Origin: an uncultured Pelagibacteraceae bacterium
GTDB taxonomy: Bacteria; Pseudomonadota; Alphaproteobacteria; Pelagibacterales; Pelagibacteraceae
Direction of reading: 5' to 3'
NCBI GenBank assembly: GCA_902574345.1
Contig: CACGNF010000002.1
Location: 1 to 64,000, forward strand
DNA length: 64,000 bases
This document shows positions 28,139-42,861 of this stretch, piece after piece (position 1 is the stretch's first letter; every line of letters starts with the position of its first letter). The notes below the pieces were generated by a model that was given only the letters and a program-made list of their open reading frames with translations, was not told where the DNA came from and did not search any database. The position numbers were made by a program, and so were the translations under genes.

Positions 28139-29144
28139 TTTGAAAACAGAAAATCTTAAAAAAGAAGTCATTAAAATTTTTAAAAATCACGGATTAAGCA
28201 ATCCTCATGCTGTAATTTCATCAAATGCTTTGATTAATGCTGAGTTAGTTGGTGCTTATGGTCATGGTCTTTCTAGATTAAGAATGTATTGTGAAAGAAT
28301 ATCTAAAAAAGTTATCAATCCAAAACCTAGAATAAAAGTAAAAAAGATATCTCAATCGATTGCTCATATTGATGCTGATAATAGTATCGGCTTTGTTGCA
28401 GCAGATCTTGCAATTAAAAAAGCAATCGAATGTGCGAAAAAAACAGGTATCGGTTTAGTGGCAGTGAAAAATAGTGGTCACTATGGATTGTCTGGTTATT
28501 ACGCTGAGCAAGCAGTTAAAAAAAATTTAATCACTATGATTTATACTAATGCTCCACCTGCAATTGCTCCTTATGGTGCAAAAAAAAGTTTGTTTGGAAC
28601 AAATCCTATATGTTTTGGTTCTCCAACTGGAGCAAGGGTACCTTTTATATTAGATACAGCTATTGCAAAAATTAACAGAGGAAAAATTAGATTTGCAGCT
28701 AGAAATAATCAAAAAATACCAAAAGGTGTTGCATTAGATAAATTTGGCAAACCAACAACAGATGCAAAAAAAGCTCTTTACGGAGTTCAGTTACCTATTG
28801 CTGGTTTTAGAGGTTCTGGTTTGGCGTGGATGGTAGATATTTTGAGTGGTGTTTTAACCGGTGGAAATCATGCAGGTAAAGTTAAGGATCCTTTTGATGA
28901 TTTTTCAGGTCCACAAAATATTGGACATTTGTTTATCACATTTAAAACAAACTTATTTGTCAAGAACTATACTTCAAGAATTAAAAATAATATTAAAACA
29001 ATTAAAAGATTGCCTAAAATTAAAGGAGTAAAAGAGATAATGTATCCTGGTCAAAATAAAGATAAAAGGTTTAAAATGAACTTAAAAAAAGAAATCAAAT
29101 TGTCAAAAATTATTCAAAAAGATTTAATAGATTTAAAAAATTAA
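28125..29144 (+). CDS. Malate/lactate dehydrogenase family 2 (Ldh_2/ComC-type) oxidoreductase
   Basis: 'AELVGAYGHGLSRLRMYCERI', 'VAVKNSGHYGLSGYYAEQAVKKNLI', 'APYGAKKSLFGTNPICFGSP'. Confidence 0.88.
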   Translation: MEKANLKTENLKKEVIKIFKNHGLSNPHAVISSNALINAELVGAYGHGLSRLRMYCERISKKVINPKPRIKVKKISQSIAHIDADNSIGFVAADLAIKKAIECAKKTGIGLVAVKNSGHYGLSGYYAEQAVKKNLITMIYTNAPPAIAPYGAKKSLFGTNPICFGSPTGARVPFILDTAIAKINRGKIRFAARNNQKIPKGVALDKFGKPTTDAKKALYGVQLPIAGFRGSGLAWMVDILSGVLTGGNHAGKVKDPFDDFSGPQNIGHLFITFKTNLFVKNYTSRIKNNIKTIKRLPKIKGVKEIMYPGQNKDKRFKMNLKKEIKLSKIIQKDLIDLKN

Positions 29145-41802: not shown

Positions 41803-41898
41803 AATGAAACAATATAGATATTAAAACTCAATGCAATTTTTAATTTTCTATTTTTAAGTGAAGTTTTTTTAAGATGTGGGAAGAATAATAAATAGTTA

Positions 41899-41955
41899 GG
41901 TTGTATTCAAGATATTTATTTACAAATTAATTAAATATATTTCTTGAATACAACC
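41899..41955. other. Long inverted repeat
   Basis: 14-bp perfect arms GGTTGTATTCAAGA (41899-41912)/TCTTGAATACAACC (41942-41955), AT-rich loop. Confidence 0.85.
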
Positions 41956-41974
41956 TTGCTGAAATTTAACTTCT

Positions 41975-42150
41975 AATTAAGGAGGTAGTTTTAATGAATC
42001 AAATGCCACCTGACACTTAGCTGGGTAGCTTCATATTTCATAAAAACGAAAACAAAAAACTTAAAGTCCATTCGGACTTAAATGCCATCAAGGCGACTTA
42101 AGGGAGCTCTTTTGGCTGGAGAGCAAAAGGGCAAACCCTTAAGTAAATTA
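41975..42150. ncRNA. Candidate structured RNA / unexplained GC-enriched element (strand uncertain)
   Basis: Contains AAGTCC-attc-GGACTT (42064-42079), outer stem ACTTAAGGG (42096-42104)/CCCTTAAGT (42136-42144) with inner GCTCT/AGAGC, higher GC than surroundings; no ORF over 30 codons. Confidence 0.45.
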
Positions 42151-42156
42151 ATTTAA

Positions 42157-42861
42157 CTATTTTAAAAATAGGCAGGTTAATTTATCTTTAAAATTTATTC
42201 TTTTGTTATATTTACTGCTGATTTCGCTAATTCCTTTTAAAATTTCTGTATTACTTAAATTCAATAAAGTTGAAATGTATCGATTTTTAATCATTTCCAC
42301 ATATTTCTCTCTCGATATCTTTACTTTGAAAGAAAACGTTTTCGAAATACTTCCAGGATATAAACCATTTATAAATCTCAGTATTTTTTGATCTCTTTTA
42401 AGCGATTTACTCAATTTTTTTTTCATTTTTGCAAAAGTTGGAATTTCATTGTTAGATGTGGCTAACGTAAATATTGCTATTCGACCACCAGAATTAAGAC
42501 AATCCATACTTAGTAAAAGTAGTTTTTTTATATCTTTAAGTGGTAAAAAATGAATTGTTTGTTTAAGTAAAATTAAATCAAATTTTTTTCTATTCTTTTT
42601 TAAGTAACTTATTGCATCTGATTTATTAAAAATAATTCTTTTATCTCTATCTTTATGTTGCTCAATATCAATACCTATTGGCTTATTAATTAATCTAAGC
42701 TTAGATGTTAAGTTTCCTAATATCTTACCTCTGCCACAACCAATATCTAAAATTACTGAATTCTTATTGATTTTTGTTTCTTTAATTAAAAATTTGTTAA
42801 AAAATTTAATATAACTATTTGAAGAAAGCCAAGTTTTATTGTCCCAATTCTTTAATGACAC
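42157..42861 (-). CDS. Class I SAM-dependent methyltransferase
   Basis: 'VILDIGCGRGKILGNL' motif I, 'FDLILLKQTIHFLPLKDIKKLL'. Confidence 0.85.
   Translation of the reverse strand: MSLKNWDNKTWLSSNSYIKFFNKFLIKETKINKNSVILDIGCGRGKILGNLTSKLRLINKPIGIDIEQHKDRDKRIIFNKSDAISYLKKNRKKFDLILLKQTIHFLPLKDIKKLLLLSMDCLNSGGRIAIFTLATSNNEIPTFAKMKKKLSKSLKRDQKILRFINGLYPGSISKTFSFKVKISREKYVEMIKNRYISTLLNLSNTEILKGISEISSKYNKRINFKDKLTCLFLK

Follow-up and report, generated by a model that had tools for sequence, protein, structure and literature searches.

What is the short interval that ends just before position 42,157 of the window, the 64,000-nucleotide stretch of DNA analysed here? It is richer in G and C (0.34-0.40) than the sequence around it (about 0.18-0.30), as an earlier note on the same letters had remarked, and that note left two explanations side by side: a new structured RNA or a decayed small gene. 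The genome in question (G000) is that of an AT-rich, SAR11-type alphaproteobacterium, 0.8 Mb in size and 67.5% complete. Few cells on Earth are as abundant as SAR11 bacteria, whose genomes are very small and hold few regulators.

The interval folds more stably than dinucleotide shuffles of itself, with z = -4.7 for 41960-42156 and z = -7.8 for 41897-42150, where the upstream repeat is included. We place the copy of the element in the window at 41,886-42,145 on the + strand. Its parts, and the gene that faces it, are as follows.

41886..41891, + strand: -10-like hexamer, TAATAA here and TANNAa in 48 relatives; putative promoter of the element's own
41898..41921, + strand: 5' box, AGGTTGTATTCAANaAaTaTATTT, almost invariant, reaching 2.0 bits at many positions across 48 diverse copies
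41942..41955, + strand: right arm of a 14-bp inverted repeat with perfect arms, predicted to pair with the box as a 5' hairpin (P0) in this copy
41979..41985, + strand: Shine-Dalgarno sequence AAGGAGG, kept in aligned homologues
41994..42020, + strand: mini-ORF MNQMPPDT-stop, its frame kept in 167 of 167 copies scored; the conserved part is the C-terminal PPDT and the stop only
42021..42023, + strand: CTG directly after the stop; three of 167 copies depart from it
42064..42079, + strand: hairpin P1 (AAGTCC/GGACTT), two-sided changes in 6 of 6 pairs
42084..42094, + strand: hairpin P2 (GCC/GGC), two-sided changes in 3 of 3 pairs, 96% paired
42100..42140, + strand: helix P3, AAGGG (42100-42104) with CCCTT (42136-42140), closing the 3' hairpin; two-sided changes in 4 of 5 pairs
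42106..42132, + strand: helix P4, GCTCTTTT (42106-42113) with AAAAGGGC (42125-42132); two-sided changes in 5 of 8 pairs
42157..42861, - strand: convergent neighbour from the ORF list, methyltransferase-like as judged from its sequence only; outside the element

Several of these parts had already been picked out by the earlier note, and we find them as it described them: the inverted repeat (41899-41912 with 41942-41955), the AAGGAGG with the ATG and TAG of the mini-ORF behind it, the AAGTCC/GGACTT hairpin, and the outer AAGGG/CCCTT stem. Its observation is confirmed, and its interpretation is partly supported.

How widely does the element occur? When 60 relatives were searched at the DNA level, the interval turned up in many genomes of the same genus. 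A pattern made of the Shine-Dalgarno sequence, an ATG and CCNCCNGAYACNTAGCTG, run on public contigs, matched at least 119 contigs, and among the matches listed the ATG was in frame in 119 of 119. The covariance model R1, which is not tied to the reading frame and which recovered the divergent copies, found the element in 148 of the 398 genomes sampled from the order, exactly once in each and always within one family (3 of 13 genera). Relatives with the element that carry names are Pelagibacteraceae. Among genomes with a completeness of at least 90%, R1 finds the element in 74 of 151, leaving roughly half without it. A broader model, R2, gave no convincing match when other families of the order and class were searched, and its weak matches outside Pelagibacteraceae were without Shine-Dalgarno sequence and PPDT-stop where inspected. 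INPHARED phages held no copies. On this comparison, the element is a structured-RNA family, in our sample confined to Pelagibacteraceae (SAR11). One R1 match (L180:1-4001, genome G166) is without the ATG of the mini-ORF and has a weakened P4, in the same neighbourhood as an intact relative; this copy is apparently decaying.

The case for structure comes from compensatory change. A first alignment of 33 distinct sequences was made with MAFFT and no structural guidance. In it, 94.5% of cells in P1-P4 are paired and two-sided changes number 55, where shuffled controls give 17.4; none of 500 shuffles reached the observed value, and versions of the structure slid along the alignment gave at most 10. 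A second alignment, with 19 more copies (divergent ones included), was fitted to the structure, which makes the first the independent test; here 96.4% of cells are paired, and two-sided compensatory changes number 113, spread over 18 of 22 pairs, where shuffles give 25.5. Compensatory changes thus exceed the controls, in that 0 of 500 shuffles match either the covariation score or the count of two-sided cells, and slid versions fall far lower. As for the strand, P1-P3 do not discriminate. The extended P4 does, with G-U and A-C apposed 55 to 4 when it is read as the + strand, so the P4 helix acts as + strand RNA. Throughout the roughly 120 nt that follow the stop of the mini-ORF, structure is conserved and sequence is variable. 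The outer stem, P3, has 9 bp in the window and a conserved core of about 5 bp among relatives. The two-state switch once read into the 3' hairpin, from mutually exclusive inner pairings, does not survive this comparison, because the loop of P4 varies from relative to relative.

Selection has also left its mark on the mini-ORF, at one end of it. In 167 copies, chosen by a pattern that left third codon positions free and accepted each of the three stops as well as LPDT (the tally is valid within those bounds), a Shine-Dalgarno sequence and an in-frame ATG precede a C-terminal PPDT and a stop, with departures of one residue each in three copies: LPDT in two related copies and PPET in one, the sole amino-acid changes. 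The codons of PPDT change synonymously (CCA/CCG, CCT/CCA, GAC/GAT, ACT/ACA), and the stop swaps among TAG, TAA and TGA. The length runs from 6 to 10 codons, and the residues before PPDT vary freely. A tiny ORF with conserved C-terminal residues and a conserved stop is a trait of arrest peptides. Such selection on frame and on PPDT-stop implies that the mini-ORF is probably translated. The CTG that follows is possibly stop-codon context. In the window the stop is TAG, a minority choice: 10 of 64 long ORFs end with it, against 46 of 64 with TAA.

Two other accounts of the reading frame can be weighed here. Decay of a protein gene would explain why short ORFs lie in several frames, and the earlier note had pointed to a 24-codon ORF at 42082 and to a frame that continues past the TAG. 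Relatives do not conserve that 24-codon frame: its ATG is missing from 55 of 167 homologues, and in the rest the frame spans about 4-54 codons. Read-through would meet TAA or TGA in relatives, and relatives hold no longer frame of which the 8-codon ORF could be the stub; the ORF is intact, and it and the structure are maintained. We give decay practically no credence. The second account deserves more respect. The RNA may be chiefly a messenger for a functional micropeptide (MxxxPPDT), whose folds merely stabilise or terminate the message, and a C-terminus and stop kept through synonymous changes behind a strong Shine-Dalgarno sequence are what such a messenger would have. Yet just four residues are conserved while the N-terminal ones are free, about 120 nt past the stop are conserved in structure, and the 5' box surpasses the ORF itself in conservation. 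We regard the micropeptide account as doubtful, though worth keeping in mind.

That 5' box brings us to where the transcript would begin. In 48 copies a T and an A are invariant 13 and 12 nt before the box, and an A at 9 nt carries 1.5 bits; the spacing from this -10-like site suggests that transcription probably starts at about 41898. We saw no good -35 for the putative promoter. Another candidate promoter, TTGAAT-17-TAACTT, was dropped, the upstream -10-like site being far better conserved. The earlier note had seen the inverted repeat and left it unlinked to the rest; the aligned copies place it within the element, its left arm inside the 5' box and the -10-like sequence before it. P0 has no covariation support, because the right arm drifts in relatives and the left arm does not.

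Does the RNA serve a gene beside it? The layout, with a Shine-Dalgarno sequence, a short ORF and hairpins, resembles that of a cis-acting leader (an attenuator or a riboswitch). Gene order contradicts this. Where the flank is long enough, the gene that comes next downstream lies on the opposite strand in 161 of 161 loci, and a sense-strand gene directly downstream was found at 0 of 161. The element is thus not a leader, attenuator or riboswitch in cis, a reading to which we allow next to no chance. Nor is there a constant neighbour family to act as its partner: the facing genes belong to 13 unrelated families, and the commonest neighbour is near 85 of 167 loci. In element-lacking genomes compared at the same site, the neighbour gene is absent too. 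Near a divergent copy a glycine riboswitch (L177:1449-1535, + strand) lies on the opposite strand, pointing away.

Convergence suggests another thought, that P1 and P3/P4 are a shared terminator ending both transcripts, with nothing else functional. A convergent gene always adjoins, and the - strand has T-rich DNA after P1. What this leaves unexplained is the conservation of the 5' box, the Shine-Dalgarno sequence, the frame and PPDT-stop; the same element also lies beside 13 unrelated gene families, and on the + strand most copies have no T-run 3' of P3. We consider a mere terminator very unlikely. As a point apart, on the - strand P1 (42064-42079) is followed by a T-run, and our consensus terminator scan recovered the terminator-like site suspected there from the start, placed for the convergent methyltransferase-like gene. 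An A-rich stretch at P1 is common among relatives.

Taken together, comparison among copies establishes a gene with a conserved + strand structure, with no gene in cis to serve, and with selection on its mini-ORF. By that evidence the element is neither a cis leader nor a decayed gene; gene order and the conserved -10-like site support an autonomous RNA gene, probably transcribed on its own.

Has anyone met it before? Rfam 15 has no match at gathering score over the element, in the window or in seven further loci that include divergent copies; permissive thresholds brought up chance matches of microRNA type only, over the AT hairpin. With no family match, an alignment that conserves the element through compensatory changes, and a gene that stands alone, the new structured RNA first suggested for this interval is supported. 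We found no description of the element in the open-access literature on SAR11 small RNAs. One copy (genome G066, 762682-762836, - strand) lies between ORFs that end at 762677 and 763013. In Candidatus Pelagibacter ubique HTCC1062, Meyer et al. (2009) list an intergenic region, 762678-763012, between SAR11_0785 and qacH, with no RNA assigned (PMC2704228). It has 27.76% GC and 76 BLAST hits, under the authors' cut of 200 (PMC2704228). The boundaries match, and by that match the G066 copy lies in this region. On these searches the element is previously undescribed, and it fills a P. ubique intergenic region left without an RNA in the 2009 survey, which had set out to find structured RNAs.

What might such a gene do? 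The reading we prefer is of a small RNA that acts in trans and is gated by its own mini-ORF: translation of this ORF, with the ribosome pausing at PPD or at the stop, would set the state of the RNA. We would give this reading an even chance. The promoter at about 41,886 would drive a transcript of some 245 nt that begins with the near-invariant box AGGUUGUAUUCAA and carries a strong ribosome-binding site, an ORF of 6-10 codons ending Pro-Pro-Asp-Thr-stop, and then three hairpin domains (P1, P2 and P3/P4). A ribosome would pause at PPD or at the following stop and, depending on the capacity for translation (EF-P, proline supply, termination), would protect or refold the RNA; the RNA would in turn regulate other transcripts or a protein. 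The conserved -10-like site, the Shine-Dalgarno sequence, conservation limited to the C-terminus and stop, and the 3' structure together suggest that translating the ORF has a bearing on the state of the RNA. One ribosome-profiling study of E. coli saw PPD and PPN among the pausing diproline motifs only in cells that lacked EF-P (PMC4140641), and EF-P is encoded in 10 of 10 SAR11 genomes checked. A search for Hfq gave no match in six Pelagibacteraceae genomes (G066, G012, G067, G062, G144, G366), against matches in 5 of 14 control genomes, which makes a classical Hfq-dependent small RNA unlikely. PPD pausing in E. coli, EF-P in SAR11, the minority TAG stop and the undetected Hfq favour a translation-gated, Hfq-independent regulatory RNA. 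More tentatively, it may be a free-standing translation sensor, in which arrest at PPDT-stop switches a trans-acting RNA, much as if an attenuator-type sensor had been uncoupled from its downstream gene. The LPDT and PPET copies show that a strict Pro-Pro-Asp pause does not hold throughout and cannot be essential in every lineage. Further points against the preferred reading are a 5' box with no long antisense match elsewhere in six genomes, the lack of a constant neighbour gene, and the absence of the element from roughly half of the well-completed genomes.

A plainer role can also be imagined, that of a structural or otherwise non-regulatory RNA whose mini-ORF just recruits ribosomes, as a decoy or a ribosome-associated RNA. 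Its single copy, autonomy, strong fold and strong Shine-Dalgarno sequence would suit. Recruitment, though, would need neither the frame nor the C-terminal residues to be kept, and the patchy distribution speaks against a housekeeping role, so we think this role unlikely.

Small RNAs with a dual, translated function include SgrS/SgrT, RNAIII and SR1. Our element is like them in also carrying a short ORF; here, however, that ORF has 6-10 codons and is conserved at its C-terminus and stop alone, and Hfq is undetected in the hosts. Leader peptides that arrest the ribosome, such as TnaC and mgtL, control a gene in cis. They share with our element a tiny ORF that keeps its C-terminal residues and its stop and contains a diproline motif, and differ in having the downstream sense gene that is missing from all 161 loci. 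A further small RNA with a short ORF is rnTrpL/peTrpL of Sinorhizobium, another alphaproteobacterium, where the leader peptide peTrpL has been shown to have a role in trans (PMC7298713). peTrpL derives from a transcription attenuator, whereas our element is never upstream of a gene that it could lead. The SAR11_0636 element of P. ubique, at 622388-622552, is a candidate structured RNA proposed to be separately transcribed (PMC2704228); it too is a GC-enriched intergenic SAR11 RNA, at another genomic site. The two-piece tmRNA of alphaproteobacteria is likewise a structured RNA with a short reading frame, but our element has its own Shine-Dalgarno sequence and ATG, a PPDT end rather than a tmRNA-type tag, and no Rfam match, and P. 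ubique has a separate tmRNA (PMC2704228). The combination seen here is unusual: a conserved, single-copy RNA gene, a tiny peptide with its last four residues and stop kept, and no gene in cis. If our preferred reading is true, a separately encoded, translation-coupled RNA would be added to the known kinds.

Some smaller observations concern the 5' end. The 5' box was found at the element in five other complete genomes. Its matches away from the element, in six genomes, have 3 mismatches, apart from the inverted arm of the box itself in G062 and a near-copy in G000. The latter (L003, contig C1, about 28152-28175, - strand), AGGTTGTATTCA..AAATTTATTT, sits just ahead of the start of a small predicted protein of 86 aa, with orthologues in only 3 of 25 relatives. 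Across the six genomes the box has no long antisense match elsewhere. The 57-bp segment bounded by the 14-bp repeats (41899-41955) is an exact inversion of that in close relatives (L006, L090), its loop identity being 1.00 when reversed and 0.71 otherwise. In L147 the segment is inverted too, and the flanks in the window are closer to those of uninverted relatives than to those of L147, which suggests more than one inversion. Inversion at this repeat is probably recurrent. The -10-like site lies outside the inverted segment, so the inversion probably arises incidentally from the repeat rather than serving to switch a promoter.
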